The position numbers and the translations under genes are program-made. Source: Pseudanabaena yagii GIHE-NHR1 (lineage in GTDB: Bacteria > Cyanobacteriota > Cyanobacteriia > Pseudanabaenales > Pseudanabaenaceae). Taken from it: a DNA stretch of 64,000 bases. The DNA is taken from positions 64,501-128,500 of the forward strand of contig NZ_JAAVJL010000002.1 of the NCBI RefSeq assembly GCF_012863495.1, written 5' to 3'. The notes below the pieces were generated by a model. That model was not told where the DNA came from. It made no database searches and saw nothing but the letters and a program-made list of their open reading frames with translations. Shown piece after piece: positions 11,226 to 53,757 of the stretch. Positions within the stretch are counted from its first letter, which is position 1, and every line of letters begins with the position of its first letter.

Positions 11226-14200
11226 ATGGCAAGAGCAACTACGCAAGGTTTAAAAATACTTAACGAAGAGCTAAAAAATCGTAAGTGGACACAATTAGCA
11301 AGTGAAATAATAGGAATAGCTGGATCTGAAGGTGTTGCTAAGCGTTTTTGGGCTGGGAGAGCGGATATTCGCCTAGAGACTTTTAAGGCACTATGCGGTC
11401 TTTTAGATGTAGATTGGCAAGCCGTAATTGTTAGAGTTGCTCAAGTCGATTTAAAAGAGGCTCAGCAGGTAGGTAACTTCTATGGGCGTACTACCGAACT
11501 GCAACAGTTAGAGCAATGGGTAATCAGCGATCGCTACCAAATTGTGACCATTTTGGGCATGGGTGGCATGGGCAAAACTTCCCTAGCATCACAACTAGCT
11601 CATCAATTAAAAGAAGAATTTGAATTTACGATCTGGCGATCGCTCCGCAATGCCCCATCTTTTGAGAGCATCCTCACGGATATTTTGCAGTTTCTTTCCC
11701 ATCCGCAACCGCTGGAACTTCCCGATAATTTACCCGCACAGCTTGACCTTCTGATGCGCTATCTAGATGCGCGGCGATGTTTGCTGGTGATTGATAACTG
11801 GGAATCAATTTTGAGCGATCGCTCTGGCTATCTCTCTGGCTATCGGTCTGGTTATGAAAGCTATGGCGATTTGCTGAGATATATCGGCGAACGTAGCCAT
11901 CAAAGCTGTTTGGTGATGACTAGTCGCGAAGCACCACCTGAACTATCACGATTGATTGGAGACAAAGTGCGATCGCTGCATTTATCGGGCTTATCGCAGC
12001 AGGAGGGATTACAGATGTTTGCGAAAGAAGCTATTGCGGCAAACGATGTGGAATGGCAGGAAATCATCACTCACTATGCAGGCAATCCCCTCGCTCTCAA
12101 AATTGTCGCCGCAGGGATTCGCGATTTACTGGGGGGTGATGTTGCCCAAATGCTAGCCTTAATGCGAGAAGGAGGACTGACCTTTGGCGATATTCAGGAT
12201 TTGCTGCATCGGCAATTTTTGAGGCTATCGGAAGCGGAGCAGGAGGTAATGTATTGGCTAGCGATTGCCCGCGAACCAATTTCGGCTCTTAGTCTTAAGG
12301 AGAGCTTACTATCGCGAGAATCCAAGCAAAGACTAATCGCAACTCTGGAATTATTGAAAAAGCGATCGCTGATGGAGGTTACTGCTAGCGGGTTTACCCT
12401 TCAGCCTGTGGTGATGGAATATGTCAATTATCAATTCATTGAAAAGATTTGTCAGGAGATTAACTGCGCTGAACAGAAGCTGAATTTGCTCCACAGTCAT
12501 GCTCTCATTGAAGCTACAGCTAAGGATTACATTCGTGATGCTCAGACTCGCTTTATTCTTCAGTCTGTAGCAGATAAGGTGAGTTATCAAGCGATCGCGG
12601 TGGCGTTAACGAGACTAAAGGCAGAAATTCCACCAAAGCAAGGCTATTCAGGTGGCAATTTGTTGAATCTTCTCTGCTATCTGCATATCGATCTGACGGG
12701 TTACGATTTCTCTAATTTATCGATTTGGCAAGCCGACCTTAGAGCAGTGGAACTGCATCGAGTAAATTTCTCTAACTGCGATCTGGCTAAATCCGCTTTT
12801 CGAGTCACTTTTAGCAGTGTGATGGCGACTGCTTTTAGTCCCGATGGCAAGATTTTAGCCACTAGCGATGTCAGGGGCTGGATTTATTTTTGGCAGATAG
12901 CAGATGGCAGTCAACTCTTCACAACTCAAGCCCACAGCGAATTTATATTTGCGCTTGCCTTCAGTCACGATGGTCAGATGATGGCAAGTGGCAGCCTCGA
13001 TCGCAAAATTAAGCTATGGAATGTGCAGACAGGAGAATGTCTGCTTGCGATGGAAGCCCATGCGATTGGGGTGGCAAGTCTTGCCTTTAGTCCTGACGAT
13101 CGCCTGATTGCTAGTTGTGGAGGCGATCGCACTGTCAAGTTAACTGAAGTCAAGACGGGCAAATGCTTGATGATCTTAGAGGGACATGAGCAGATTGTGC
13201 GATCGGTTGCCTTTAGCCCTGATGGTCAAACGGTTGCTAGTTGCAGTTTAGATCGCACCATTAAGCTATGGAGCGTGTCAACGGGAGCCTGTCTGCGGAC
13301 TATTGTCGATGCCAGTGCGGTCTATGCACTCGCCTTTGCGCCCCAAATCGAAGCGCAGAGTTCAGAAGTACAGCTTGCCAGTGCTGGCGAAGATTGCCTG
13401 ATCAAGATTTGGGATGTTCATACGGGGCAAATCGTGAGTGCGATCGCAGGGCATCAGAAACAGATTTGGGCGATCGCTTTCAGTGCTGATGGTCAGATGC
13501 TAGCTAGTGCAGGGGATGATGAAACCGTAAAGCTGTGGTCAGTGAGTACGGGTGAAGTAATTAGAACTCTGTATGGTCACAAAAATCGGATTTGGTCGGT
13601 TGCCTTTAGCCCCGATGCGAAGGCGTTGGTGAGTGGCAGCGACGATCGGATTGTGAAGCTATGGGATGTGGAGACGGGGCAATGTATTAGAACAATTCAG
13701 GGCTATCACCGAGCGACGAAGCCTGTTGCCTTGAGTCACGATCGCGATCTTCTCTTCTCCTTTAGTTATGAAGAACAGAGCGTCAGAGTTTGGGATGTTG
13801 AGAGGGCAAAATGTTTGAGGAATTTCGATCTCGGTACATCGGGAGTGATGCAAGTTGCCTTTAGTCCTGACCAGCAAACCTTTGCCTGTGGGAACTATGA
13901 CCATACGATCAAGATTTTTGACGCTAAAAATGGAATCTGTTCCCAAATCCTCCAAGGACATTCGACTTGGGTGAGATTTGTGATTTTTGCTCCTAATGGC
14001 GAGATGCTGATTTCAGGAAGTGGCGATCGCACGATTAAGCTTTGGCATCTGCCAACGGGAGAATGCTTACATACTTTATGCGGTCATACCAGTCCTGTTC
14101 AATCTCTCGCGATCGATCCCAATGGTGAAATCCTTGCTAGTGGCAGTTGGGACGGCACGATTAAAATTTGGGATCTGCGATCGCCTGAATGTTTGATCAC

Positions 14201-14684
14201 CTTAGCGGGACATATCGATCGCATCGAAAGTTTAGCCTTTAGTGAAGATGGGATGTTGATTAGCGGCAGTATGGATTACACGGTTAAGTGCTGGGATCTG
14301 ACAACTTTTGATTGTGTGAGAACGCTGCCAAGTCAATTTCCTGTTTGGACAATTGCCCTAAGTCCAACTTCGCCAATTCTGGCGATCAGTGGCAATACTT
14401 CAGAGATCAAGCTATGGAATTGGAACACTAATAGTTATTTGGAACATTTAGATGGAGAGTTCGGGATTGGCTACATGGGCGATCTGATTTTTAGTGCTGA
14501 TGGACAGCTTTTAGCCAGTGGCGGCGAGGATGGAACTAATCGGCTTTGGGATATGCAAACTGGCAAGAGTTGCAAGTTATTGAAAATTCCTAAGCCCTAT
14601 GAGGAGATGAATATTAATGGTGTCAAGGGTTTGACTGAGGCTCAAAAGTCTACGCTGATGGCATTAGGAGCAGTTGTTGAATAA
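11226..14684 (+). CDS. STAND NTPase with N-terminal HTH-like region and 14 WD40 repeats
   Basis: 1152 aa. Residues 1-80 form a helical, HTH-like N-terminal region (LASEIIGIAGSEGVAKRFW) shared with the protein at 24490. An NB-ARC-type NTPase follows: P-loop GMGGMGKTS at 111-119, Walker B LLVID at 186-190, sensor SCLVMTSRE near 230, and GNPLALK. After a winged-helix segment and a short pentapeptide-like linker (DLTGYDFSNL) I count 14 WD40 blades, i.e. two seven-bladed propellers, from about residue 535 to the end. Such STAND proteins usually oligomerise when the propeller senses a ligand. No effector domain is visible except the HTH-like N-terminus, so the output may be transcriptional or by recruitment. 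Confidence 0.88.
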   Translation: MARATTQGLKILNEELKNRKWTQLASEIIGIAGSEGVAKRFWAGRADIRLETFKALCGLLDVDWQAVIVRVAQVDLKEAQQVGNFYGRTTELQQLEQWVISDRYQIVTILGMGGMGKTSLASQLAHQLKEEFEFTIWRSLRNAPSFESILTDILQFLSHPQPLELPDNLPAQLDLLMRYLDARRCLLVIDNWESILSDRSGYLSGYRSGYESYGDLLRYIGERSHQSCLVMTSREAPPELSRLIGDKVRSLHLSGLSQQEGLQMFAKEAIAANDVEWQEIITHYAGNPLALKIVAAGIRDLLGGDVAQMLALMREGGLTFGDIQDLLHRQFLRLSEAEQEVMYWLAIAREPISALSLKESLLSRESKQRLIATLELLKKRSLMEVTASGFTLQPVVMEYVNYQFIEKICQEINCAEQKLNLLHSHALIEATAKDYIRDAQTRFILQSVADKVSYQAIAVALTRLKAEIPPKQGYSGGNLLNLLCYLHIDLTGYDFSNLSIWQADLRAVELHRVNFSNCDLAKSAFRVTFSSVMATAFSPDGKILATSDVRGWIYFWQIADGSQLFTTQAHSEFIFALAFSHDGQMMASGSLDRKIKLWNVQTGECLLAMEAHAIGVASLAFSPDDRLIASCGGDRTVKLTEVKTGKCLMILEGHEQIVRSVAFSPDGQTVASCSLDRTIKLWSVSTGACLRTIVDASAVYALAFAPQIEAQSSEVQLASAGEDCLIKIWDVHTGQIVSAIAGHQKQIWAIAFSADGQMLASAGDDETVKLWSVSTGEVIRTLYGHKNRIWSVAFSPDAKALVSGSDDRIVKLWDVETGQCIRTIQGYHRATKPVALSHDRDLLFSFSYEEQSVRVWDVERAKCLRNFDLGTSGVMQVAFSPDQQTFACGNYDHTIKIFDAKNGICSQILQGHSTWVRFVIFAPNGEMLISGSGDRTIKLWHLPTGECLHTLCGHTSPVQSLAIDPNGEILASGSWDGTIKIWDLRSPECLITLAGHIDRIESLAFSEDGMLISGSMDYTVKCWDLTTFDCVRTLPSQFPVWTIALSPTSPILAISGNTSEIKLWNWNTNSYLEHLDGEFGIGYMGDLIFSADGQLLASGGEDGTNRLWDMQTGKSCKLLKIPKPYEEMNINGVKGLTEAQKSTLMALGAVVE

Positions 14685-18414: not shown

Positions 18415-19026
18415 CTATGGAAAACTCTGAAAACTAGAAAAAAGAGCAAGCAAATTTATGAGGTCTAGCTGATTTTCAGGTCGTCTTGATAGCTGAAACT
18501 TTTCTTGAATAATCTGCGAACTCATAGAAGGTTTGCAAACAGCCATGCCTACAATTTTATTACCATCGTCACTAATATTTCCAGTTAAAGTGATTGTGGC
18601 TACTAAGAAGGTTTGAATAGTTGAAAATTGACTAAAGACAATTCTATCTTTGGTTACAGATCCTGAGCTGAAAACATTAAGATAGATATTAGGGCTAGAT
18701 TGGGATGTCAGTTTTACTTGAGGTGATATCAAAGAATTCCCTTTTTGAATTATGAATAATGAATTACCATCAACAATTTTTCCATTTGGATAGGTCGCTT
18801 CTATCTGATTAGCCTTAAGTCGGTTGCTGACTGTACAGGAATAAGGAGTAATTTCAAAAACAAGTGAGTAGTCATCCGTCCAAACGCCTGTTAAACCTTG
18901 ATTATTCTTGACATAATTTTCCCCACCAACTTCTTTACCAAAAAGAAATATAAGCAGACTAAATACTATAGTAAAGATTGATAGGGAATTGAACTTTGAT
19001 AAAGAATAAGAACATAATGATTTCAT
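18415..19026 (-). CDS. Secreted or membrane-anchored hypothetical protein
   Basis: 203 aa. One hydrophobic N-terminal segment (SIFTIVFSLLIFLFG, about residues 16-30) acts as signal peptide or anchor; the remainder is beta-rich and probably periplasmic. The ATG follows an AGGAG-type site. It runs in the same direction as the CHAT-CHASE2 gene and lies 93 nt downstream of it. No known family recognised. Confidence 0.55.
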   Translation of the reverse strand: MKSLCSYSLSKFNSLSIFTIVFSLLIFLFGKEVGGENYVKNNQGLTGVWTDDYSLVFEITPYSCTVSNRLKANQIEATYPNGKIVDGNSLFIIQKGNSLISPQVKLTSQSSPNIYLNVFSSGSVTKDRIVFSQFSTIQTFLVATITLTGNISDDGNKIVGMAVCKPSMSSQIIQEKFQLSRRPENQLDLINLLALFSSFQSFP

Positions 19027-19119: not shown

Positions 19120-21618
19120 TTAGCTATGCAAAAATCTTGCTATTTCCCCCGCATTTCCAGATGAGCGCAAGAGTTTAGGTAAACAGTAAACGATCGCCAC
19201 AATTGCAGGAGAGACAATCGGCAAAAGCAACCCACCTGAAATATAAATCTCGATACTCGCTAAGGTATATAGGCTAAGGGTTATAGTCATTACCAGATAA
19301 ACCTGCCGATGCGATCGCGGCTGCCAAAAGCTGACGAGAATCGTCCCAGACGCTAGAAATAAAATCATCATCCACACATCGGGAATGGGAACTACATAGC
19401 GATCGCGTAGAAAATGATGGATTGCATAGGTTTGTACTTCTCCACCTGTGTAGCTTTCCCTCTGCTTAGTTGATGGTGATTGCTGGAGCCAATAACGAAT
19501 TGCTGATGGCTGAGCGAAGGAGTCCTCCCCCTGCTTAAATACTCCCGCTTCGGAATAGTTAGCGGAAATGAGAATGATTTGTGAGTCGGAGATTTTGGGA
19601 GGCTCCTGTAATAATTGCCATGCAGGGATCGTTTGGTAAATGCGATCGGGGGGAATCGAGAAATCGACAATTGGATGGAACCATGCTTGACCAAATTTAT
19701 CTTGAGCAAAATCTGTGATCGGCCGTATTTGCGCTTTAGGATCAAGCAAACTGCGGAAAGTCTTATTCTGCAATCGTAAGGTATCGGATATTTGCGTAAA
19801 GAGGCTGTCGTTTTGATTTAATGGCGATCGCCAATTTTGCGATGATCTCAGTCGCTGAAGACCTGCCAATAGATAGGAAAAGGGCAATTTAGGCACATCA
19901 GCTTGCACTAGGGGCAAATACTGCACCGACATATGAATATGACCATCGATGCTGCCATTTTTACTAGCAATTTCGGGCAAAGTCTCTAGCCAATTCCCTT
20001 CGCTATAGACAGAAGCCAACACAAACCAAGTTCCATTTTTGCTGTTTGTTTGTCCATTTACAGCATTTTGAATCGCCTGTCCTAAAATGCGATCGCTAGT
20101 GTGATCGCTTTGTCCACCATCTTTGCCATCCTTGCGATTACGATGGGAGCGATCGAGTAAATAGTCCATACCGATAATCTGAGCATTTTGGCTAGCTAGG
20201 CGATCGACTAATTGAGCGAGATAATTTCTATCCATGGGATGCGGATCAGCGATCGCCGCTTTTTGTAAGGACGCTTCATCAATTTGTACTAAAAGGACGG
20301 GAGGCGATTCCTGAGGAATGCGTTGTGTCTGTTGGCGATAGATCGCCTGTAGCCAAACGCGCCGATCAAGCATCCATTCTTGAAAGGAGGGAATAAGGCT
20401 CATTGCCAGCAAAGTACTAAGGGCGATCGCTTGTAATGGCGTTGGTAAAACTCTCTTTATAAAGGCACTGAGGCTCTTAGGAGGGATTTTAAATAAAGGT
20501 GCGTCAGGATGGCGAAATAGTGAGGGAATCAGATAAACCGAAGGAAAGGTTAAACGTTCTTCTTGTAAATAGCGACAGGCGGCAAACATGGATGTATGAG
20601 CATCTTTATGTTGGGCGAGATTTTGGAGAAACTGGACTAAAAAGCTCTGGGCAGCCTGATTATGGATGGGTTCACGCATGGCGATCGCTTGTGGTATGCC
20701 GACTTTAGAGACTAGCCATGTAGCGATCGCAGTGCCATTGCAGGAGTTGAAAATCGCAATTTGTAATCCTCGTTCTTTGGCTTGCAATAGATAGGGATCT
20801 AAATCGCTCATGGTCAGCGAACTATTGGGTGCAACCAGTAACTTCCCTCCTGTTAAATTAGTTTGGTCGCTATGTCCTGCAAAAAAGAGAATATCCCAGC
20901 CCTGCGGATCAGCGATCGCATTACAGATCTTCTGCTTTTGATTGAGGCGATCTGATGGTGCAGCATCCCAACAAATCGTCTGGATTTCCGCTAATGCCGA
21001 GAGAATCTGCATTGCTTCACGATCATTTTGCAAATCTAAACCTGTCTCATCACCAAAAATTGCTAGCACCCGAGGACGGCGACGCGATTGCGGCGGCGAA
21101 ATTTCGGTGCTTGAGTAAATTGCTCTAGCAATGCGTACAGTATCTAAAGGGACAAATTCATCCTGTAGTTTCCATGCTTCCCAAGGTAGGCACAGCAAAT
21201 CTTCGGAACAAGTAATCAGTAAATCAATATGGATGCTCTCTAAATCCGATGCTTTAGATTGAGTAGATACGAGACGGGATGAACGCTTCACCTCTTCCCA
21301 TAGTTCATAAAGCTCTGGACTTCGCAACCAAAAGTTCAACTCCCGAATTAACTTCTCCTCGGCTTCACGCAGCTTCTCATACCAATCAACATTCGAGAGC
21401 GAAAAACTACCACTTCCCTGCACTCTTCCCCGTAAAGAGTTCTCCATGGTTACATGACGATAGTAGTTGAGATAGGCATTCTGCCATTCACTATAGCTAT
21501 TAGCCAGTTTTTCAGGATAGGCGATCACTACTACAGGTAAGCGCTGATTTTTTCCCCATTTCAGCAGAAATCGGCATTGGCTTTCGATCTTCTCAACTTC
21601 TAGATAGTAAGTCGGCAT
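19120..21618 (-). CDS. CHAT-CHASE2 membrane protease-like protein
   Basis: 832 aa. Residues 1-120 are a helical N-terminal region. A CHAT (caspase-like) domain spans about 125-375, with the expected dyad in place: His249 in FFAGHS and Cys293 in FNSCNGT. After a membrane helix near 393-410, a CHASE2 sensor domain (VLLVQIDEASL, IIGMDYLLDR) occupies about 415-720. Three or so membrane helices end the protein. The protease is predicted on the cytoplasmic side, the sensor outside. Its ATG directly follows the TAA of the DUF1822 gene (TAAATG), so the two are translated together. The substrate is unknown. Confidence 0.85.
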   Translation of the reverse strand: MPTYYLEVEKIESQCRFLLKWGKNQRLPVVVIAYPEKLANSYSEWQNAYLNYYRHVTMENSLRGRVQGSGSFSLSNVDWYEKLREAEEKLIRELNFWLRSPELYELWEEVKRSSRLVSTQSKASDLESIHIDLLITCSEDLLCLPWEAWKLQDEFVPLDTVRIARAIYSSTEISPPQSRRRPRVLAIFGDETGLDLQNDREAMQILSALAEIQTICWDAAPSDRLNQKQKICNAIADPQGWDILFFAGHSDQTNLTGGKLLVAPNSSLTMSDLDPYLLQAKERGLQIAIFNSCNGTAIATWLVSKVGIPQAIAMREPIHNQAAQSFLVQFLQNLAQHKDAHTSMFAACRYLQEERLTFPSVYLIPSLFRHPDAPLFKIPPKSLSAFIKRVLPTPLQAIALSTLLAMSLIPSFQEWMLDRRVWLQAIYRQQTQRIPQESPPVLLVQIDEASLQKAAIADPHPMDRNYLAQLVDRLASQNAQIIGMDYLLDRSHRNRKDGKDGGQSDHTSDRILGQAIQNAVNGQTNSKNGTWFVLASVYSEGNWLETLPEIASKNGSIDGHIHMSVQYLPLVQADVPKLPFSYLLAGLQRLRSSQNWRSPLNQNDSLFTQISDTLRLQNKTFRSLLDPKAQIRPITDFAQDKFGQAWFHPIVDFSIPPDRIYQTIPAWQLLQEPPKISDSQIILISANYSEAGVFKQGEDSFAQPSAIRYWLQQSPSTKQRESYTGGEVQTYAIHHFLRDRYVVPIPDVWMMILFLASGTILVSFWQPRSHRQVYLVMTITLSLYTLASIEIYISGGLLLPIVSPAIVAIVYCLPKLLRSSGNAGEIARFLHS

Positions 21619-22779
21619 TTAAAGCGCATTTGGATGAAATGCAAAGGCTGGTAAGGTTAACATAACACCACTGGGCAAAGAAATCGATACCGAAAATGTT
21701 TCAGTGCGATCGCCAGTGACGCAGGCATAGAGATAGAGATCTTGACTTGTCTTGTCTAACTGCCGATCAATCAACACATTCTGTTGATCGCGAACCCGCA
21801 TTCTCACCCCATAGGGAATCTCGCCGATCACTTGGCAACCAAGGACGAGTAGTAATGACCATTCAGGATTTGCTTCAAGATTTGTGAAGTAATTACCATC
21901 AGCCCACACGGTTGCATAGAGGCGTAAGTGGCGATCGCCTAATTGAAAATCTTGATAGGCAGCCTTAGCGGAAGGGGGAACCTGCACATTCAAATGGGTC
22001 AATTCACTAATTATGGTTTCTAACTCCATTTCCGAAGAACGTAACCCTAAAGAACGCATTCCTAATCCATAACTAGGTTGCCAAGTCGGTAACAGATGCC
22101 AAGCTAAGTTTTGGGCGATGTCATCCAATTGCTCTTGCAACCATAGTCCTGTATTCAGGATTAGCTCCGTGATATTAACGGATGATTCCGTAACCGTCTC
22201 TAGTGGCAATGCTTTGATCGGTTCTAAATTTTGGAGATACAACAGCAATCGCTCAGGTTCATCATCGAATAGAGATAGCGGCACTTGGTAAGTATTCTCA
22301 AGGCGATCGCCTTTTAGTTCAGCAACTAGATCCGCAAGATGTTTGACTAAGTGCAAATGGCGACTAAAGCCTAAAATTAGAGCCTGTGCAATCTCTTCAT
22401 AAATTTCGACAATAACGATAAAAGTATTGCTCGAATTATGATTATTCTCACCCTTTGAACTTTGTGGTTGCAAAATATTGGCAGGTATTTCCACCATGTC
22501 CCCCGATGATGGTGTTATTCCTAAAATATAAAGCGTAAAGCCATTCACCTCTAGATAATGAAGATTTCCTTGTCGATTAGTGATTTCTTCAGAATCGCGA
22601 ACAGAATCAAGATTTGGTGAGCGCTCATGTAACCATTCACATATCGTCAAATAGGCGATCGCATCTAGATAAGTCTGCCATTGGTTATCAGCCTTTTGGG
22701 ATAAACTGATCGCTTGCTGCATAATTTCATCGGATAAAGCGATCGCATCAATAGGTATCGTTTCAAATTCACTAAGCAT
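21619..22779 (-). CDS. DUF1822 family protein
   Basis: About 386 aa from the ATG at 22779, which has a strong site (GGGGGAAAG); in-frame ATGs upstream at 22818 and 22815 lack one. The pattern matches cyanobacterial DUF1822 proteins: NLAWHLLPTWQPSYGLGMRS, a mid-length beta-rich domain ending in SLPSGVMLTLPAFAF. Soluble, no signal peptide. DUF1822 genes are commonly found directly upstream of CHAT-CHASE2 genes in cyanobacteria, as here. Function unknown; it may control or be a target of the protease. Confidence 0.75.
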   Translation of the reverse strand: MLSEFETIPIDAIALSDEIMQQAISLSQKADNQWQTYLDAIAYLTICEWLHERSPNLDSVRDSEEITNRQGNLHYLEVNGFTLYILGITPSSGDMVEIPANILQPQSSKGENNHNSSNTFIVIVEIYEEIAQALILGFSRHLHLVKHLADLVAELKGDRLENTYQVPLSLFDDEPERLLLYLQNLEPIKALPLETVTESSVNITELILNTGLWLQEQLDDIAQNLAWHLLPTWQPSYGLGMRSLGLRSSEMELETIISELTHLNVQVPPSAKAAYQDFQLGDRHLRLYATVWADGNYFTNLEANPEWSLLLVLGCQVIGEIPYGVRMRVRDQQNVLIDRQLDKTSQDLYLYACVTGDRTETFSVSISLPSGVMLTLPAFAFHPNAL

Positions 22780-22889
22780 TGTCTTTCCCCCAGTATTGAG
22801 TAAATTGAGTGTCATCATTATTTTGATTATCTCTGTTAATTCGTTGTCTATTCATAGCGCTAGTTCTCTGTAAGTTATGCAAAGGGTAG

Positions 22890-24308
22890 TTAACATTGAT
22901 GGACTTTCTGTAAATACTGACAAAGCTTCATGGCAAAACGACTGCGGAGAGGAATCCCCTTGCTCTTAATACTTTCAGCCTCGGCACGTTCCATTTCTTC
23001 AGCTACTAGTTCTTCCAGAATAACTTCTAACTTTTGATCTAACTGATCTAATTTGGTAGGGTCGGTATAGAACTTAACTAATTCCATCACCTGCTCGCGT
23101 AAATTTCCTAAAATCTCTCGCCGAATATCCGCCCGCAACTCCTTTAATTTTAGCAAGCGTGTCACCTGATATTGAGCCTCTAAACCAACCGCAGTCGCAA
23201 TTTCTGACATGGTTTGTCCATGACAATGGAATAAACTTAATCCCGTTAGAAAATTTTGATTATTTTCAGGCGATCGCTGCTGGATTTTGCTAGAGCGGAT
23301 GTCAATAACTTTAGCGATCGCTTGCTCTAGACTTTGCTCAAACTGTTGACGATAAGCATTTAAGAAAGTAAACGCATCATTTTCTTCTTCAGATTGGGCA
23401 AATAAACGTTCAGGTTTAATCGTTAAATTCGGCTGATCTAAGGAAACTTGTGTTGGTTTACCACCCCTAGCCTGAATCCGATATTGACGGAGCTTGCTTG
23501 CCATTTCCTGCAACCTATACAAAGTATTAGCTGGGGCTAAATATTCACGATGGTTCTCTAGATATTCGCTTATCCTCTGTAATTGTTCAGTAGTTGGTGG
23601 AGGGCATTGCCCCTTACTTCCATTTGATCGCGTATTTAATCGCGTATCTAATCGAGACTGTAACCGATCTAATCGATAGACTGCATGGTAGGCTTCCAAT
23701 AAAATTTTTGATTGTTGAATCGAATATTGAGCAGTTTGATAGAACTCTGTGTAAATGCGCTCTAATTGCTTTGGACTTGTATCATTGAGAATCGCCCAAT
23801 CACTGACTAGATAAACGCCATGCTCTAGTAAGAAAGCATTTAATTCTCGATTTTGCTTAACTTTGCGATGCGTCCAAGTTGCGAGATTACTAAGTTCAGG
23901 ATCAAAACCATCGAGAATTTCACGAGCAACAGAGATGAATGTACTTTGGTTTGCTTGGCGATCGCGTTGACCGACAATCACATCGTTCAACACAAAAACT
24001 AATAAATCGTTATGCTTAAATCCATGCTCAGTACCAAACTGATTGGCGATTTGATAGCAGGTTTGCTCAACTTGATTAGAAATAAAGCACCGCAAGCATA
24101 GTTCGGCATTTTCGCGCTCATGGCGATCGCTACTTTGCCGCGATCGCCACAACTGTTTCTGCACTTGCGAGTCCGTTAAATCAGCATCACCATCATCTAT
24201 GGCTGGAAATTGTGCCAACAAAAATTCTCTAGCCTCAATGCTAGTTTCACGGATACATAGCCCTGTCGCCTTTAACTTTACAAATTGCCAATAATGGCTT
24301 GCTCTCAT
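22890..24308 (-). CDS. HTH protein, sigma-factor-like, of the DUF1822/CHAT-CHASE2 unit
   Basis: 472 aa. The central part is helical with Q- and N-rich linkers. Near residues 355-395, HCHGQTMSEIATAVGLEAQY then QVTRLLKLKELRADIR form a clear helix-turn-helix, the pattern of cyanobacterial proteins annotated as sigma-70-like. It precedes DUF1822 by 110 nt on the same strand and probably heads the three-gene unit. It may be a transcription factor for the unit; sigma activity is inference. Confidence 0.65.
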   Translation of the reverse strand: MRASHYWQFVKLKATGLCIRETSIEAREFLLAQFPAIDDGDADLTDSQVQKQLWRSRQSSDRHERENAELCLRCFISNQVEQTCYQIANQFGTEHGFKHNDLLVFVLNDVIVGQRDRQANQSTFISVAREILDGFDPELSNLATWTHRKVKQNRELNAFLLEHGVYLVSDWAILNDTSPKQLERIYTEFYQTAQYSIQQSKILLEAYHAVYRLDRLQSRLDTRLNTRSNGSKGQCPPPTTEQLQRISEYLENHREYLAPANTLYRLQEMASKLRQYRIQARGGKPTQVSLDQPNLTIKPERLFAQSEEENDAFTFLNAYRQQFEQSLEQAIAKVIDIRSSKIQQRSPENNQNFLTGLSLFHCHGQTMSEIATAVGLEAQYQVTRLLKLKELRADIRREILGNLREQVMELVKFYTDPTKLDQLDQKLEVILEELVAEEMERAEAESIKSKGIPLRSRFAMKLCQYLQKVHQC

Positions 24309-24364
24309 AACGATTTATGTCCCTATTTCAGTCTATTCCTATTACTTCTCAAGGACTTTGACCT

Positions 24365-24418
24365 ATGCAAAAGTTAAGGATGAGTGACGCTTCACTTCGC
24401 CCATCCTTACTTTTGCAT
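24365..24418. repeat. Palindromic repeat between divergent genes
   Basis: The 18-base arm ATGCAAAAGTTAAGGATG pairs with 24402-24418, one base bulged, around a 19-base loop. It lies in the 181-bp gap between the divergent HTH gene and the STAND gene and may contain regulatory sites or be a dispersed repeat. No clear promoter boxes were picked out. Confidence 0.6.
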
Positions 24419-24489
24419 TTGCAAGTATTTTACTCAATCTTTTGTTACACTGCTCTCATCTTTGTTCATGCCCTGTCTCCCCATTATTG

Positions 24490-26097
24490 ATGTCCAGCAC
24501 ACTGAAAGCTTCAAAACAAGGACTTGAAATAGTCGATCGCGCGAGGCGGCGACGGGGTTGGACTAAGACTCGGACATTAGCATGGTGGCAAGGCGCACAT
24601 ACTTCACAGGCGACCCTCAGACGATTCTGGCGCAGTATTGCCATTGATCGCGATGCCTTTGCTGCCATTTGTTTGACTGTGGGAATAAGCGATTGGCAGG
24701 CGATCGCCGAAAATACTTTCTTAGCAAATGAGAATATCCTCTCGGCAAAACAAACGCATTCTCTCAGTCAGCAAGATTGGAGTCAATCTCCTGATCTGAT
24801 TGATTTTTACGGACGTGAAACGGAATTAGCATTACTGGAAACTTGGTTGATAGGCGATCGCTGTAAAGTCATATCAATTTTGGGAATTGGTGGTATTGGG
24901 AAAACCTCCTTAGCTGTCGCTTGTGCCGATCGCTTGCAAGATAAATTTGACTATTTAATCTGGCGATCGCTACAATCCATGCCTACGCCCATTGAATTTT
25001 TGCAGGATTTACTGCAATTCTTTGATAGCGAGCATCAATCAGTAAAAATTGATAGCTTACAACAGGGAATTAATCTCCTTCTCAATTATTGCCAGAAATA
25101 TCATTGCTTGTTGATCATTGATGGCTTAGAGGCAATATTCCTGAGTAGTGAGGGGAAAGTAAAGCCACAAATAGGCTTCTATCAGCAAGGCTATGAGGGC
25201 TATGGAGAAATAATACATAGGTTAATAAGCGATCGCCATCAGAGTTGTTTGTTAGTAACTAGTCGTGAAAAAGCCGCCGAAGTTGCTATGTTTGAGAACG
25301 AATCTGGCTCTTTACAAAATCTAGTACTGCGCGGTTTAGAACTTCCAGAAGTCACTGAGTTATTTGAGGCAAAGGGTTGTCAAGGTAGTGAGAGAGAATT
25401 GCAAGAAATCACATCTCTCTACGGAGGCAATCCCCTTGCTCTAAAAATCATTGCGACTATGATTAGCGAGGTATTTAGAAACAATGTGAGAGCCTTTTTA
25501 CAGGAAAATACGATCGTCATTGGCGATCGCTTAAAGTCTTTGCTAAAACAGCAAACAGATCGCCTATCTGAATTAGAAAAAGAAATTCTCTACTGGTTAA
25601 TGCTTGAATCTAGCCCAATGAGCCTATCAAGGTTACGCAGCAATTTACTAATACCTCCAACTTTTTCGCAGATTTTGGACATTCTGTCTGCGCTGGAAAG
25701 GCGATCGCTAATTGAGAAAATTGTTGACGAGGTTGAGGTCTGTTTTACGCTTCAGCCCTTTTTGATGAAATATCTACAAGAGGAACTTGCGGAGCAAATT
25801 CTAGATGAGTTTTGTGAAGCGATCGCAGATCAGGATATTGACTGTTTAAGGCTATTTCGCACTTGTAGATTAGTAAGTGATCATCAAACTCGCCTACTGC
25901 TACGCCTCAAAAATGAGATCTTCCGAACCTATCGCAGTGAGAAGAAAATTCAATTGATTTTCGATTTCTTCGTTCCTCAGTTAGAGCATAAGCCAGATCT
26001 GGATATTGGCTATTTGGGTAGCAATTTTCTTGCCTTGATTGAGGCTTTTGGGTTGGAGCGCGATCGCTACAATTGGCAGAATATTTGCCTAAGGTGA
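24490..26097 (+). CDS. STAND NTPase lacking a sensor domain
   Basis: 535 aa from the ATG at 24490; an upstream TTG (24442) would add 16 residues and is less likely. Residues 1-75 match the HTH-like N-terminus of the protein at 11226 (TLRRFWRSI). The NTPase has P-loop LGIGGIGKTS (131-140), Walker B CLLIIDG, a sensor SCLLVTSRE and GNPLALK. A winged-helix segment follows. The protein stops (NWQNICLR) exactly where the homologue enters its linker to WD40 repeats. The sensor is therefore missing: either it was lost, or a separate partner supplies it. It is divergent from the HTH/DUF1822/CHAT-CHASE2 unit and may be linked to it. Confidence 0.82.
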   Translation: MSSTLKASKQGLEIVDRARRRRGWTKTRTLAWWQGAHTSQATLRRFWRSIAIDRDAFAAICLTVGISDWQAIAENTFLANENILSAKQTHSLSQQDWSQSPDLIDFYGRETELALLETWLIGDRCKVISILGIGGIGKTSLAVACADRLQDKFDYLIWRSLQSMPTPIEFLQDLLQFFDSEHQSVKIDSLQQGINLLLNYCQKYHCLLIIDGLEAIFLSSEGKVKPQIGFYQQGYEGYGEIIHRLISDRHQSCLLVTSREKAAEVAMFENESGSLQNLVLRGLELPEVTELFEAKGCQGSERELQEITSLYGGNPLALKIIATMISEVFRNNVRAFLQENTIVIGDRLKSLLKQQTDRLSELEKEILYWLMLESSPMSLSRLRSNLLIPPTFSQILDILSALERRSLIEKIVDEVEVCFTLQPFLMKYLQEELAEQILDEFCEAIADQDIDCLRLFRTCRLVSDHQTRLLLRLKNEIFRTYRSEKKIQLIFDFFVPQLEHKPDLDIGYLGSNFLALIEAFGLERDRYNWQNICLR

Positions 26098-33493: not shown

Positions 33494-33841
33494 AGTAGCC
33501 TCCAATTTATTATGTAGATTTACTGACAAAGAGTTCGCTCAATAGGTGTGTATTTTGAAATCAAACACACCAAGTTTAGTCTATGTATTTCTAGTCAGCA
33601 AAAAACTATGCGATAAAGTTTAAGTTTTGTTAATTACTGCGTAAGTTAGCTGCTGAAGCCTGATGAGTAGATAAATGGTTGAATTTGTACTGCATAGTTC
33701 AGCGATCGCTAGCGCTATTTGTATGTAGTCAAGCAACAATTTTTAATTTGCTTTTTATCTTTACATAGGTGACTTAATGACAAATCTAAATAAAATGTGC
33801 ATGATGGGTCTGTAGATATTTTTGATGGAGCGATCGCCATT
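33494..33841. other. Divergent intergenic region, 348 bp
   Basis: A short imperfect hairpin at 33545-33571 (GGTGTGT/ACACACC) and one HIP1 site near 33702 are visible. It must hold promoters for the divergent YiaA/B-like and CHAT genes; no boxes were identified with confidence. Confidence 0.4.
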
Positions 33842-35656
33842 ATGGGGAAGCTAGTAACCCTTAAATTTAATGACGGTAATTTCGAGCAGGGCTTTGCAGT
33901 AACAATTCAGATTGGTGAAGAAGGAGCACTTCCATCATCAGAAATTGCTGCAAATTTGCCTCCATCAAAAGAGTTGCCTTTGCTATATGACGCATGGCAA
34001 TCTTTCTATCTAAAAATAGGCGCAACCACGCGACTCTCAGCAGATGCCAATGCTGTTACTAACGTTTCCTTTCTTGAAGATTGCTATGATGCTGCCGAAA
34101 AACTTGCAGAACATCTCAATCAATGGTTGCGATCGCAGTCTTTTCTCCCTGCGAGGGAATTAGTCTCCGATAATATCTACAGAAGCGATGAAGTGCGGGT
34201 ACTACTGCAATCGGGAAATCCCTATTTACAGAAGATGCCTTGGCACTTGTGGGATTTATTTGATCGCCGCTTTACCAAATCAGAAATTGCGATCGCTGCT
34301 CCTGCCTACTCCAGTATCGCTCCTACTAAAAAGCATTCTGATAAGATTCGGATTCTCGTAATTCTTGGCAATAGTGAAGGTATTGATATTGATGCTGATC
34401 GCGCCATGCTAGAACAATTACCCAATGCCGAGGTAACTCTGTTAGTAGAACCGAAGCGCCAACAACTTAATGATGAGCTATGGCAACAGCAATGGGACAT
34501 TCTCTTTTTTGCAGGGCATAGCTCCACTCAACAAGATATCGGTCGGATCTATATCAACGAAACGGAAAGTCTAAGGATGGAACAGTTGCGCTATGCGCTG
34601 AGAACGGCTGTATCTAATGGGCTGAGATTAGCGATTTTTAACTCCTGTGATGGTTTGGGCTTGGCGCGATCGCTATTTGATTTGCATATTCCCCAAGTAA
34701 TCGTGATGCGTGAACCGATCCCCGATGAAGTAGCGCAGAAGTTTCTCCGCTACTTTCTCGAAGATTTCTCAAGTGGAACCTCTTGCTATTTATCAGTACG
34801 TCGCGCAAGAGAGCGCTTGCAAGGTATTGAAGACCGCTTCCCCTGTGCGACTTGGCTACCGATTATCTGTCAAAACCCCGCCGAAACACCTCTAACATGG
34901 TCAATTCCTAAGGATGAGAAAGTGACAATACCTCTACCAGCACCACCAAAACAATCAGTACCAATAGTATCGCCAATGATAGAAGCGTCATCTCCCCCTC
35001 CATCTAATCGAAGAAATCAAAGGACAAAGTTATTCCAATTGCCACAAACCTATATGCTTTTGGCAGGAACAGCTTTGGGTTTGGCTTGTTTTGTGGCGGT
35101 ACTGCGTCCGCGTCCAATTGTGATCGCGAGTGGTGGGGCGATCGCCGCGATCGTCATTGGTGCGTGGTCATGGCAAGTTAAGAAGGAATTTGCGTGGTTG
35201 AACGAGAATAATTTGCTCGATCGCTATGTATTTGCCTCAAAACTGGACGGCTTAGAACGCAAGTCTCTGGCTACTGGGATGCAGTGGCGGAGGGCGAAGG
35301 CATGGGCGAGGGAGATTCATGCTTATGCTGAAAAAATAGTTGAGAAGGAACCAGATATGACGGTGGATATCTTAGAGACTTTGATCACTGTTTTGGATTT
35401 AGCGGGACAGGTCTCTGATGCGATCGCTACTATTGGTCAGGTGAAGTCTGAGAATTATCGTGTGGTTGCCCAGCGACGTTTACAAGCAAGTTACGATCGC
35501 CTGCAAGCTACTCACGAACTTTTGCAAAACCTACAAGATCAAGTTCTATTACTTTCGCTAGACCGCAGTAGTTCTAATCTCAAAATGGAGCTTCCTGCTC
35601 AGTTAAGATTAGCGATCGATACAAACAAAATTACTTTACAAGCAAATGAAAATTAA
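33842..35656 (+). CDS. CHAT-domain protein with two membrane helices
   Basis: 604 aa from the ATG at 33842, which gives the familiar MGKLVTLKF...GFAVTIQIG start of cyanobacterial CHAT proteins; a GTG at 33797 would add 15 residues. The CHAT domain (about 110-360) keeps its dyad: His226 in FFAGHS and Cys269 in FNSCDGL. A Pro-rich linker (360-395), two membrane helices (about 402-440) and a helical C-terminal region of 165 residues follow. It is a second membrane-tethered caspase-like protein besides that at 19120. It heads a plus-strand run of membrane and secreted protein genes, the next only 17 nt away. Confidence 0.85.
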   Translation: MGKLVTLKFNDGNFEQGFAVTIQIGEEGALPSSEIAANLPPSKELPLLYDAWQSFYLKIGATTRLSADANAVTNVSFLEDCYDAAEKLAEHLNQWLRSQSFLPARELVSDNIYRSDEVRVLLQSGNPYLQKMPWHLWDLFDRRFTKSEIAIAAPAYSSIAPTKKHSDKIRILVILGNSEGIDIDADRAMLEQLPNAEVTLLVEPKRQQLNDELWQQQWDILFFAGHSSTQQDIGRIYINETESLRMEQLRYALRTAVSNGLRLAIFNSCDGLGLARSLFDLHIPQVIVMREPIPDEVAQKFLRYFLEDFSSGTSCYLSVRRARERLQGIEDRFPCATWLPIICQNPAETPLTWSIPKDEKVTIPLPAPPKQSVPIVSPMIEASSPPPSNRRNQRTKLFQLPQTYMLLAGTALGLACFVAVLRPRPIVIASGGAIAAIVIGAWSWQVKKEFAWLNENNLLDRYVFASKLDGLERKSLATGMQWRRAKAWAREIHAYAEKIVEKEPDMTVDILETLITVLDLAGQVSDAIATIGQVKSENYRVVAQRRLQASYDRLQATHELLQNLQDQVLLLSLDRSSSNLKMELPAQLRLAIDTNKITLQANEN

Positions 35657-43833: not shown

Positions 43834-46800
43834 ATGATTACGCGCTTGCTACTATCAGACATCTTTACTAAAAAGCGCAATTTGTCACTGCAATGCCTTC
43901 TGATTTGCCAGTTTGTGATTTTGATTGTGGGAATATCAGGAGTACTGGCATGGCTATCTTGGCGGAGTGAACAGGAGACGATCGCGAATTTAGTGGGACA
44001 ACTACAAAATGAAATTAGCGATCGCATTGAGCAAAAACTTACTTCTTATTTGGAAACACCACATTTAATTAATAAAATCAATGCTGATGCTGTGCGACAA
44101 GGCATCTTAAAGACTCAAGGTCGATCTAGTGAAATCTATCTATGGCAACAAATCCAAAATTTCCCTACGGTTTCTTGGATTTATTATGGAGGGGAAAAAG
44201 ACGGTGAATTTGTAGGTGTTAACCGCTTAGAGATAGAGAATAGCGACAAGAAAGAGTCATCAACTAATGGGAAGGAAAATCCAAGTTCATCTCTGCAACT
44301 AGCAATTAATCTTAACGGGTTGCAGCGCTATTATTACAGCCTTGATCAACAGGGGAATCGCGTTGAAAAGCGAGGTAAGCCAGAGTTTTATGATGCTCGT
44401 CAACGCCCTTGGTATCAGGCTGCATTAAAAACTAATCAGCCAATTTGGAGTTCCATTTATCAAGACTCTACCTTGCCTGAGCAGGTGATTACCGCAAGCT
44501 TGGCAGTCTATAACGCTCAAGGCGATCGAATTGGTGTGTTAGGGGCTGATCTTTCTTTAGAGAATCTATGCCAATTTTTAAGGGGATTACGGATTGGTAA
44601 GTCGGGGCAAGCTTTTATTATTGAGTCTTCAGGCTTGCTAGTTGCTAGTTCAACCATGGAAAATCCCTATGAGATTGGGAAGAATCCCCAAAAGCCAGAG
44701 AGATTATCAGTTAAAAATATCGATCAACCGATGATTCGGGCGACAGTTGGACAGTTAGAGCAACAGGTGGGGAGTCTATCACAAATTAAAAGTGAGCAAA
44801 GGTTACAGTTTTGGGCTGATGGGAAACATCTATTTCTGAAGGTAATACCCTACCAAGATCCACGTGGGATTAACTGGTTAATTGCTGTAGTCATGCCTGA
44901 AGCTGACTTTATGGAGCAGCTCGATGCGAAGCGACAAACAACAATTTTACTTACTTGTATAGCCTTAGGAAGTGCGATCACCTTAGGAGTTTTAACTACT
45001 CAATATATTAATAAATCACTGCTGAGACTAACTCTAGCAAGTCAAGCTTTAGCAAATGGGGAGCTAGAAAGGGAAGTCCCTCCTGTGCAGATCAAGGAAC
45101 TCAATCTTCTTTCTCAAGCTTTCAATCAGATGGCAGTTCGTCTCAAACAAGCATTTACAGACATAGAGAAAGTTAATGAGGATTTGGAAACTCAGATCGC
45201 AGAGCGGACATCAGCATTGCGTGCATCGGAAGAACTCTTCTCTAAGGTCTTTTGGGCTTCGCCTTATCCCATTACAATTTCTAGTCGCCTTGATAAAAGA
45301 GTTATCGCCTTTAACGAGAGCTACTTATCGATTACGGAATATCTTAGAGAAGATTTGGATGGTAAGAAAGTTACAGAATTACCAACTTGGGTCAATTCTA
45401 AAGATCTTGCTCACATTGTCCAGACGTTAGATGCAAATGGCTCATTGCGTAACTATGAGATGAGTTATCGCAAGAAGTCACAGCAAATTTGCACTGCTCT
45501 GATCTCTTGTGAAACGATTACATTGAATGGGGAAAGCTGTGTTATTACTGTATTTAACGATATTAGCGATCGCAAACAAATAGAAAATGCTTTAAGTACA
45601 AGTGAAGAGAAATTTAGAAGTCTAGTTGCGAATCTCTCAGGAATTGTCTATCGCTGTGCCTGTAATCCTGAATGGAAGATGGAATTTCTAGGGGGAGCAG
45701 TTACGGAAATGACAGGCTATACATCAGAAGATTTTATCAATAATCAAACTCGAAGTTGGATGAGTATTATCCATCCTGAAGATCGTGAGATGGTTGAGAG
45801 AATTGTTCATGAAGGTTTAATTTGTCGAGAACCCTTTATTTTAGAATATCGGATTATTGATGCTCATGTGAATATCCGTTGGTTTTATGAAAAAGGGCAG
45901 GCAGTCTTCAATCGTGAATCTGAATTACTGTGGCTTGATGGCGCAATTTTTGATATTAGCGATCGCAAACAAGTTGAATCAGAACTATTAGAGAGAGTGC
46001 ATTTTTCAATTTTAATGGCAGAAATTGGGGCTGCATCCAATCAACTAGATTCCTTAGAAGAAGTGCTGCAATCCTATGTGGAATCTCTATGGCGACATAT
46101 GAATGTTGATTTTGCCCAGATTTGGACAGTCAATACCCTTGGTACTAATTTAGATTTACAGGCTAATGCGGGTCACTATAATCAAGAAGATAGCGATCGC
46201 TTAAGTAATTTAGTAGCTAGGGAAAAGATTTGGTCGATTACTCAAGGTAATTTTCAGCCACTTTTAACAGAGCAAATTTTAGCGGATTTGACGGATACTG
46301 AGCGAGAATGGCTAGATCAGCAAGGCATCATTTCCATTGCGGGATATCCTTTGCTATGGAGAGATAGAGTGATTGGGGTGATGCTCTTGGTTTCTCAGTC
46401 CCATTTAGATACTGATATCCATGCGATCGATTCCATTGCCAATGCGATCGCTCTAGGGATTGATCATAAACAGGCTGAAGAAAGACTCAAAGTAACCAAT
46501 GCGGAAATGCGCGCCTTGTTTGCCGCTATGGATGAAGTGATATTAGTACGCGATCGCCAAGGTCGCATTCTCAAGATTCCTGAGACGCGCAAAAAACTGG
46601 GCTGGTTAACACCTAGCCAAGTAGTTGGTAAGCTTCCTTCAGAAATACTCAGTCCTGAACTATCGGATTTATTTATAAGTACAATCCAAAATGTTTTAGC
46701 AACCCAACAGACATTAAGTATCGAGTATAACCTCACAGATACGGAGCAGCCGATTTGGTGGAATGCCAGTATTTCGCCAATCGATCAGGAAACAGTGGTT

Positions 46801-48360: not shown

Positions 48361-48424
48361 ATGCAAATCAAATTCTAGTCATTTGCATCAGCTTTCAAAA
48401 AATTTTATGGATATAGCTAACTAA

Positions 48425-53700: not shown

Positions 53701-53757
53701 GATTTTTAAAAAGCGGCGCATCGGTGAATTGGAGTCGGGAATGGCAGGTGCACTCAT
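50719..53757 (-). CDS. MFS/nucleotide-translocase-like protein fused to HEAT repeats
   Basis: 1012 aa. Residues 25-440 contain about 12 hydrophobic segments in MFS or ADP/ATP-translocase (Npt1)-like arrangement; then a soluble part of about 550 residues made of HEAT-like helical pairs (for example EVRCALLRAIAA, AAYKALVNLGDDGISSLLEL, VNVRIQAWDILGEIG). The transport substrate is unknown. Paired with a cNMP-binding protein this suggests a transporter controlled by a cyclic nucleotide. Start ATG at 53757 is 51 bp from the divergent nuclease gene. Confidence 0.82.
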   Translation of the reverse strand: MSAPAIPDSNSPMRRFLKIVNLRPDEAERTLLMFLFYCATSIGAVWLEYSSSTLFLEAYKAENLTWVYIATAFVVTTFGVFYSWLQKLFPLRWVMLGISCLLALPLPLVWMGLMQKGSFLYMASVFGIRLWVEGIYVLSNINNDIAANQLFNIREIKRAFPLITTGIIVAEIVGGFSYPFLVSLGGVPNMTLATCVMLLIGSALLFYLSTRYRQAFPNSVYNIDEDSDISARSLQGNLLKYVWLLFGFFIAAQVLFFMIEFQYQTQLEIHLKTEEAIGSFLGIFGGIMGVFKLALQLFGSSRIIERIGVFFAVLMPPIGIIVTGTLAGFAPFGLLIGFVVLKFFDELFRFTIVAATAPTLFQAIPDQFRSRIQSFVRGIADPLATGGAGILIWIVGEIFKKGGIETEISSHWFAAVIVIVALIWVTVIWLLRRGYLELLIQSVERGQFSLLTVDTRELRRALSESMTRAETQTEQSVCIDLLTQIVPQAVGESLAPMLSQMTPDLQAQSIEAMLENPEPKYLPYINEVMQSPNASPQVQALCLRYVLLADEKNRDIDSLRTYLGPEQNPIIRSTAVALMMRLGASSQVAEATNTLRHMITSSSQPERVLGCRALAEAAFMQSLRFYVPQLLQDPSIEVRCALLRAIAATRTSEYFPSIVRGLHYKATRKAAYKALVNLGDDGISSLLELAHSDRSPVNVRIQAWDILGEIGTQSSISVLASNLSKSWGKHRRQILRALIRIPQDQGIESILELIGRSGIEKIVIQELGVMTEAWSGIEDISLRQLETPETELLLESLQNEAIDSLERIFLLMKLLYPPSAIQAASFNIISGTKSSLARGMEILDNTVDLSVKQILLSVVDNRSISDKLSILGTIHPYRPLTPIKRLQQLVDLSYCLSDWTLACCFHLARTQFWSLPAESMLKGLGHPTGFVREAVISYLQVASPRSLIKILPRLLKDRDPLVLAQARAISYYFQNNGKNILNLSDNSQEGHDIDTEIRARMSGGKPRGYGES

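Follow-up and report, generated by a model that had tools for sequence, protein, structure and literature searches.

What does a caspase-like protease control when it is fused to a membrane sensor and encoded directly behind two smaller genes on the same strand? The question is raised by a locus in a stretch of 64,000 nucleotides from Pseudanabaena yagii GIHE-NHR1 (the window, that is, the whole stretch of DNA that was analyzed). Three genes follow one another on the minus strand: Gene 1 (22890..24308, 472 aa); a gene for a DUF1822 protein (21619..22818, 399 aa), here proposed as an anti-sigma factor and protease substrate; and Gene 3 (19120..21618, 832 aa), encoding a predicted membrane protease composed of an N-terminal domain (N-domain), a CHAT domain, and a CHASE2 domain. 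A STAND gene (24442..26097, plus strand, 551 aa) diverges from them and is counted outside the system. All four open reading frames (ORFs) were found where a first-pass annotation of this DNA had placed them, and its reading of three co-oriented genes, for a helix-turn-helix (HTH), a DUF1822, and a CHAT-CHASE2 protein with a TAAATG junction, was correct: Gene 1 and the DUF1822 gene are separated by 71 bp, and the DUF1822 and CHAT genes by 0 bp, with the junction sequence TTTAAATGCCG. Pfam matches were obtained for DUF1822 (PF08852, E = 1.9e-18), CHAT (PF12770, E = 3.5e-11), and CHASE2 (PF05226, E = 1.6e-20), and the genome contains a single copy each of Gene 1 and DUF1822. The answer put forward here, which we hold to be evenly poised between right and wrong, is that the operon may be a switch from a membrane signal to transcription, made up of a sigma factor, a DUF1822 anti-sigma factor, and a CHAT-CHASE2 protease.

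Gene order and the sigma-like first gene

The gene order was assessed in the best 80 of 106 confirmed loci, which were collected by profile search of genome contigs and some of which share a genome. The DUF1822 gene lies within 600 bp of the sigma gene in 72 of the 78 loci having at least 1 kb of downstream sequence, and a gene for an N-domain-CHAT protein follows in 44 of the 61 loci having at least 4 kb (in 36 of the 44, within 2.2 kb), CHASE2 being present on 43 of these 44 CHAT proteins. The order is preserved over many cyanobacterial genera at approximately 35–45% protein identity, with spacing that is often short or absent; because of this recurrence, the arrangement is not due to chance, and the conserved linkage on which the first-pass annotation had staked its unit is borne out by these counts. 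The Gene 1 protein itself was found in 17 of 58 relative genomes, among them 9 of the 26 that belong to the genus, counting the window's own genome, and in 20 neighborhoods, some of them at contig ends or resting on weak matches, a DUF1822 homologue was present in 18 and a CHAT-CHASE2 homologue in 16. In the wider phylum, the Gene 1 profile matches 56 of 386 genomes, some weakly.

Other genes accompany the related loci. A gene of a DUF928-type cluster, of which one member matched DUF928 and another matched nothing, is present in 37 of the 44 CHAT-bearing loci; a TPR or TPR-CHAT gene is interposed in some loci; and further neighbors include subtilase, TPS, and caspase genes. The window's gene at 18415-19026 was considered as a DUF928-type fourth gene and rejected, with zero match to the DUF928-type profile. 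An apparent sigma-DUF1822 fusion of 766 aa (locus L120) was likewise set aside: the normal sigma C-terminus runs on in another frame, and the fusion has the look of a frameshift, the assembly being of low coverage. This locus is tallied within the 6 of 78 loci without a separate DUF1822 ORF.

Gene 1 is strongly supported, through profile comparison, as a sigma-70-type factor of a diverged branch resembling the extracytoplasmic function (ECF) sigma factors. The protein matched zero Pfam families at E ≤ 0.05, gave chance-level matches only at E ≤ 1, and had zero direct match in NCBIfam; single members of its family give weak hints, with Sigma70_r4 matched weakly in 1 of 18. Remote DUF1822-linked relatives are far clearer: L127 and L128 match TIGR02937 (4e-23 and 1e-17), L130 matches Pfam Sigma70_r4 (8.5e-8), and in all three loci the sigma gene is followed by a DUF1822 gene. 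Comparison by hhalign of the Gene 1 family (A4) with A8, a 12-member family that includes these three TIGR02937- or Pfam-confirmed sigma factors, gave 98.8% (E = 5.6e-17) over 316 columns running from sigma-2 through sigma-4, and two controls gave 0.2–0.3%. Against solved chains, A8 obtained 14 matches at E ≤ 0.01, namely nine sigma factors (best 1.9e-9) and five HTH regulators. In addition, the AlphaFold2 (AF2) model of Gene 1 (pLDDT 91) had zero Foldseek matches at E ≤ 0.001, and the 50 matches listed by VIA, judged by their entries, look like sigma chains (Z 6.0–7.8).

Two conserved regions can be placed on the protein with inferred bounds. The sigma-2 region (residues 62-162, ~23823..24125, minus strand), with the motif DLLVFVLND...FDPELSNLATWT, was located by alignment to confirmed sigma-2 regions; the VIA match to 6omf_F covers 102 residues (root-mean-square deviation 3.7) within residues 13-164 of the Gene 1 model. 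The sigma-4 HTH (residues 345-396, ~23121..23276, minus strand), MSEIATAVGLEAQYQVTRLLKLKELR, was located by profile comparison. The earlier label "HTH protein" was right about a C-terminal HTH, which is sigma-4, and under-described the rest of what profiles and VIA indicate to be a sigma-70-type factor; with Gene 1 so re-identified, the unit becomes one of protease, putative anti-sigma factor, and sigma factor. A long, mostly helical stretch, including a disordered part at residues 290-305 (pLDDT < 50), separates sigma-2 from sigma-4. Other long DUF1822-linked sigma factors share such a stretch, the TIGR02937 match of L174 spanning residues 72-353. According to the available text of a survey of cyanobacterial sigma factors, accessory Pfam domains occur at the ends only (PMC11119718), and since the Gene 1 insert is no Pfam domain, such a survey is blind to it.

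DUF1822 and its putative anti-sigma role

DUF1822 is probably a sigma partner, most likely an anti-sigma factor, a reading based on its pairing with sigma genes and on a membrane-anchored form found beside ECF sigma genes in a distant lineage. Among 146 genomes sampled from the phylum, 102 contain the DUF1822 domain. The pairing was measured on 59 DUF1822 genes, every second of 117 among the matches listed from the 146 genomes, a sample without the distant lineage (family f43, below), the gene of the window itself, and eleven more, mostly short, split, or stop-bearing. A same-strand ORF of at least 120 aa lies within 400 bp upstream of 55 of the 59, and 51 stand directly behind a sigma-like gene belonging to one of two BLAST clusters, with 24 long and 27 short members. 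TIGR02937 was matched at E ≤ 0.01 by 29 of the 55 upstream ORFs; as the long cluster has 24 members, at least five of these matches fall outside it. In a set of 30 loci, 12 of the 15 scanned gave a TIGR02937 match. The sigma nature of the short cluster is less certain, resting on those members that match TIGR02937 and on visual reading of sigma-2-like stretches. Downstream, a CHAT gene was found within 700 bp of at least 28 of the 59.

Some loci carry more than one such pair. In L026 (4111-5815; the same as L047), a second pair of a sigma-like gene (216 aa) and a DUF1822 gene (~320–330 aa) lies directly downstream of the first system, and in L047 another N-domain-CHAT gene stands behind the second pair; in L046 (17332-19046), a second sigma-like and DUF1822 pair lies about 2 kb further on from the first system.

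Family f43 belongs to another class of the same phylum, with genomes of 1.6–2.3 Mb that are probably those of non-photosynthetic Vampirovibrionia, and its DUF1822 N-domain is found mostly inside ORFs of ~800–1300 aa. Nine stretches were available, of which L171 was dropped as it ends inside the gene; in all eight complete loci, an ORF of 929–1294 aa is followed, after 12–106 bp, by an ORF of ~190 aa. The eight short ORFs are 49–100% identical to that of G112, itself a TIGR02937 match (9.8e-20), and sigma region 4 was matched by the three scanned (G112, G416, and G124). The long protein consists of the DUF1822 N-domain, an acidic linker (27–36% D+E), a single strong hydrophobic helix (score > 2.2; in L167 it is joined by two weaker ones), and a C-terminal end. 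In the five proteins scanned, this end matched TonB-C in four, and Pfam DUF1822 was matched (E ≤ 0.001) by three of the five. A broad DUF1822 profile with the window's subfamily left out aligned by hhalign with the f43 N-domains (96.4%, E = 1.3e-9) and with the window's subfamily (99.7%, E = 2e-26). Versions of these comparisons, and of that of the CHAT protein's N-domain (below), with members of the window's own subfamily included were stronger (99.4%, E = 1.2e-21; 100%, E = 6e-60; 97.5%, E = 5.8e-12) and were not used. A protein whose cytoplasmic part is joined by a single membrane helix to a periplasmic domain, and whose gene stands beside that of an ECF sigma factor, has textbook anti-sigma anatomy. 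The predicted layout of the f43 protein, in which DUF1822, a transmembrane helix, and a TonB-C-like end are encoded beside an ECF sigma factor, is this anatomy. Either DUF1822 or the CHAT protein may bear the sensor. The family-specific CHAT profile found none in the nine f43 stretches (3–10 kb), a weak negative, as the window-type DUF1822 profile missed its target there too. Behind the f43 ECF sigma gene, L164-L170 and L172 have an ORF of ~850–1000 aa (some incomplete), and one such ORF that was scanned contains zinc ribbons, an AAA domain, and TPR.

The window's DUF1822 protein was modeled by AF2 (pLDDT 83.4) as an alpha/beta N-domain and a beta-sandwich. The alpha/beta domain (~residues 25-200; 22219..22746, minus strand), which recurs in f43, is the proposed sigma-binding part; a linker (residues 204-215; 22174..22209, minus strand; pLDDT < 50) is a candidate cleavage region; and the C-terminal beta-sandwich (~residues 281-399; 21622..21978, minus strand) is indicated by AF2 and by weak beta-sandwich matches. 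Cyanobacterial DUF1822 proteins are mostly soluble, a hydrophobic helix being found in 2 of the 59. The protein contains zero Pfam anti-sigma domains, and its model had zero Foldseek matches at E ≤ 0.001. Three other identities were considered for DUF1822 and rejected. For a nuclease, the VIA scores are weak and the invariant residues show no evident D/E-x-K motif. For a homologue of Csx30, the anti-sigma protein of type III-E CRISPR loci, the matches listed offer no sequence or fold support, so that a functional analogy is all that is kept. A TPR protein, as DUF1822 is described in the available text of the EACC2 study (PMC8195603), does not agree with the alpha/beta and beta-sandwich model or with the zero TPR matches in Pfam.

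The CHAT-CHASE2 protein and the surrounding DNA

Gene 3 encodes, in order, four recognizable parts, all on the minus strand. The N-terminal domain (residues 1-125, 21244..21618), which occupies the position described for EACC2, is conserved in an alignment of relatives and aligned by hhalign (96.8%, E = 2.2e-10, 84 columns) with the N-domains of 24 CHAT proteins encoded at other DUF1822 loci, the window's subfamily being excluded. It is followed by the CHAT caspase-like domain (residues 127-349, 20572..21240), the CHASE2 domain (residues 403-759, 19342..20412), and three C-terminal hydrophobic helices (~residues 745-813, 19180..19386) at 745-763, 773-791, and 795-813 by hydropathy. A further helix N-terminal to CHASE2, near residue 395, reaches the hydropathy threshold only in relatives, for example L027. 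The putative catalytic residues are His249 (codon 20872..20874), in FFAGHS, and Cys293 (codon 20740..20742), in FNSCNG, a role that we take over from CHAT proteases generally. The first-pass annotation had described this dyad as intact, as indeed it is, and it is invariant in 15 of 15, 47 of 47, and 29 of 29 CHAT homologues having the region, one split-gene fragment being without it. The possibility that the domain is inactive in all homologues is at odds with the dyad being intact in each homologue of the last two sets. The suggestion that a membrane signal drives the protease likewise fits the predicted layout of CHAT, transmembrane helix, CHASE2, and three transmembrane helices. Among 28 DUF1822-linked CHAT proteins, the C-terminus carries CHASE2 in 18, Peripla_BP_6 in four, and nSTAND1 in two; a protease that stays the same while its sensors change is what one would expect of an input module.

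A second CHAT protein of similar type is encoded in the window (33797-35656, plus strand, 619 aa; CHAT E = 8.9e-16), with 32% identity over 355 columns to the N-domain-CHAT half of Gene 3 (E = 2e-33) and another C-terminus. Behind it lie genes for two unassigned proteins that have hydrophobic stretches and for one vWA protein, and a scan of nine ORFs in its surroundings gave no sigma or DUF1822 gene.

The divergent STAND protein, with an NB-ARC match in Pfam (E = 8.7e-10), had been suggested to be driven by the three-gene unit, and this suggestion fails on linkage. Among eight congeneric loci with 4.7–7.9 kb of upstream sequence, a homologue is present in one (74% identical, ~1.2 kb upstream); the closest relative, with a sigma protein 91–92% identical, has no STAND homologue in its upstream sequence; and the 80-locus set contains one close homologue, in the same genome as the congeneric one, and two remote ones (31–32%). 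The STAND gene was thus rejected as a partner. Its TTG start at 24442 is probably too early, and an ATG near 24490 is likelier, because the alignment with the 74%-identical relative begins only at residue 19.

Upstream of the sigma gene, a comparison of six sequences revealed a conserved element, TGCATAGGTCAA-N7-GAGAAGTA (24343..24369, minus strand), whose first box is present in five of the six (window included; one with a changed base) and both of whose boxes are present in four. The 13-mer TTGCATAGGTCAA (24358-24370, minus strand) occurs in its exact form once in the genome, as does the exact two-box pattern. Near copies were counted as candidate sites of a regulon, a use of the element that was then set aside. 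With up to one mismatch, the 13-mer occurs 14 times in the genome (13 near copies elsewhere) versus two for a reversed-pattern control, and if up to three mismatches are allowed, the two-box pattern occurs six times versus four for the control. Within the window, the 13-mer does not stand out clearly from chance, with 6 versus 2.5 expected and 8 of 100 shuffles reaching 6. Elsewhere, the window encodes a protein of 1152 aa in which a long WD40 array is accompanied by weak NTPase/STAND-type matches (11226-14684, plus strand), a HEAT-repeat protein (50719-53757, minus strand), and, beside the latter, a large hybrid histidine kinase and a GGDEF-EAL response regulator (43834-50221, plus strand).

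A candidate switch, its rivals, and known systems

In the proposed switch, the sigma-70-type factor of Gene 1 would be kept in check by DUF1822 through its N-terminal alpha/beta domain, as suggested by the pairing and by f43. A signal would activate the cytoplasmic CHAT cysteine protease, which would cleave DUF1822 (or itself and then DUF1822), releasing the sigma factor by analogy with Csx29, Csx30, and CASP-sigma; DUF1822 is the best candidate for the protease's target. The freed sigma factor would drive a regulon, to which, speculatively, the operon itself might belong, together with the genes of DUF928 type and for proteases that stand beside related loci. More tentatively, and with the balance tipped somewhat toward doubt, DUF1822 may be a large unrecognised anti-sigma family whose N-domain grips ECF-like sigma factors, with release by a separate sensor-CHAT protein (CHASE2, periplasmic-binding, STAND, or other) in cyanobacteria and by the fused transmembrane/TonB-C-like part in f43; in that case, Csx29, Csx30, and CASP-sigma would be a single instance of a more general wiring of CHAT, anti-sigma, and sigma proteins.

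A number of observations weigh against the switch. Among the structural matches listed for the DUF1822 N-domain, no known anti-sigma domain was recognized, and its best weak matches in VIA are restriction-endonuclease-like folds (RecU and Hjc, Z 7.2 each; PvuII, Z 6.5; also HincII and DpnI; all in the range of Z 5–7); nor was a PDB chain named Csx30 among the profile and structure matches listed for DUF1822. The direct comparisons with f43 are poor, both for the window's DUF1822 subfamily and the f43 domain (25.9%, E = 7e-4), which are connected by way of the broad DUF1822 profile, and for the Gene 1 family and the f43 ECF sigma profile (0.9% in hhalign). For the sigma assignment, VIA Z values below 8 can be common for helical proteins and are not decisive by themselves; the profile of the short sigma-like cluster reached 54% to the Gene 1 family and 2–4% to the other two sigma profiles; and the one member of that cluster tried had zero sigma match in the PDB. 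Finally, no CHAT gene was detected within 700 bp of 31 of the 59 sampled DUF1822 genes, and no N-domain-CHAT gene lies downstream in 11 of the 43 long sigma loci with at least 9.5 kb of downstream sequence, so that CHAT is not obligatory.

Three other explanations of the locus were weighed. That the genes are merely co-transcribed, without a joint function, agrees with the CHAT gene being missing or several kilobases off in a minority of loci, and is very improbable in view of an order kept over so many genera at such low protein identity. It is also unlikely that DUF1822 acts as an adaptor or co-activator bringing the sigma factor to the membrane protease, with the sigma factor itself (for example, between sigma-2 and sigma-4) or a third protein being cleaved; the long, partly disordered stretch of Gene 1 and the weak likeness of the DUF1822 beta-sandwich to binding domains would suit such a role, whereas the f43 protein, a membrane-anchored DUF1822 beside an ECF sigma factor with CHAT undetected, has the classic anatomy of an anti-sigma factor.

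A device for conflict, anti-phage or programmed-death, in which CHAT auto-activates on infection and the sigma factor switches on defense or suicide genes, is rather unlikely, if a little less so. The available text of the EACC2 study contains an in silico prediction that EACC2-caspase systems act against invaders, with an ECF sigma factor, DUF1822, and sensors of various kinds, CHASE2 among them (PMC8195603), and the varying sensor ends and the caspase and TPR-CHAT genes near some loci are of a piece with it. Against it stand zero PADLOC matches for the Gene 1, DUF1822, and CHAT-CHASE2 proteins, a sensor that is a periplasmic-type CHASE2 with no obvious invader sensor, and DUF928, TPS, and S8 neighbors that are more envelope- or surface-like. 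An immune role rests on that published prediction (PMC8195603), as far as its available text goes, and not on data found here. The conflict device is compatible with the proposed switch rather than opposed to it. If the switch is real, a sigma factor would be under the direct control of a caspase-like protease that is itself part of a membrane receptor.

The EACC2 proteins come from an eLife paper of 2021 whose authors are reportedly Kaur, Iyer, Burroughs, and Aravind. In its available text, EACC2, a constant N-terminal alpha+beta domain, is joined to a caspase domain and a variable C-terminus for which CHASE2 is named, an ECF sigma factor and DUF1822 occur in most TRADD-N-free EACC2 neighborhoods, and activation of the autopeptidase with a sigma-mediated response is proposed (PMC8195603). 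Gene 1, DUF1822, and the N-domain-CHAT-CHASE2 protein appear to be a member of this predicted class, with CHASE2 as the sensor: the caspase-superfamily His and Cys, the variable C-terminus with CHASE2, and the sigma and DUF1822 neighbors are all found here. The window's 125-residue N-domain, common to DUF1822-linked CHAT proteins, is a candidate EACC2 domain by its position directly before the caspase-like domain. A difference is that the available text has DUF1822 as a TPR protein and describes an autopeptidase (PMC8195603), whereas here there is no TPR and an anti-sigma factor is proposed. DUF1822 was not found as an anti-sigma factor in the available EACC2 literature, nor was a paper found that combines CHASE2 with "CHAT domain", subscription papers being outside both searches. 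What is new here is the proposed holding-back role for DUF1822, the gene set itself having been predicted before. If correct, it would turn the in silico proposal into a concrete three-protein hypothesis, with possible new protease-substrate and sigma/anti-sigma pairs.

In type III-E Craspase, according to the available text, Csx30 binds the ECF-type CASP-sigma and inhibits it, and is a substrate of the CHAT protease Csx29 (PMC10028731), so that there, too, a single locus brings together a CHAT protease, a sigma factor of ECF type, and a third protein. The differences are that CHAT is accompanied there by TPR and Cas7-11 and is fused here to a membrane sensor, and that no homology was detected between DUF1822 and Csx30. 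No Cas7-11 (gRAMP) or other CRISPR part was present among the window ORFs scanned, with no whole-genome search made. If the switch is real, the locus would be a CRISPR-free counterpart of Craspase, and DUF1822 would gain a function. The predicted topology of Gene 3 is the same as that of a Trichodesmium metacaspase-CHASE2 protein with a cytoplasmic caspase-like domain, one transmembrane helix, CHASE2, and three transmembrane helices (PMC3501461); that protein is called a metacaspase, is a single sequence, and has no sigma or DUF1822 neighbors named in the available text.

Outside these, FecR/FecI is a case of envelope signaling through an anti-sigma protein to the release of a sigma factor. 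Protease-controlled anti-sigma switches include RseA/DegS and RsiW, as named in the available text on Craspase (PMC10028731). The proposed switch would share with all of these an envelope signal, proteolysis of or signaling through an anti-sigma factor, and sigma release, and would differ from them in that the protease and the sensor form one CHAT-CHASE2 chain and the putative anti-sigma factor is mostly soluble.

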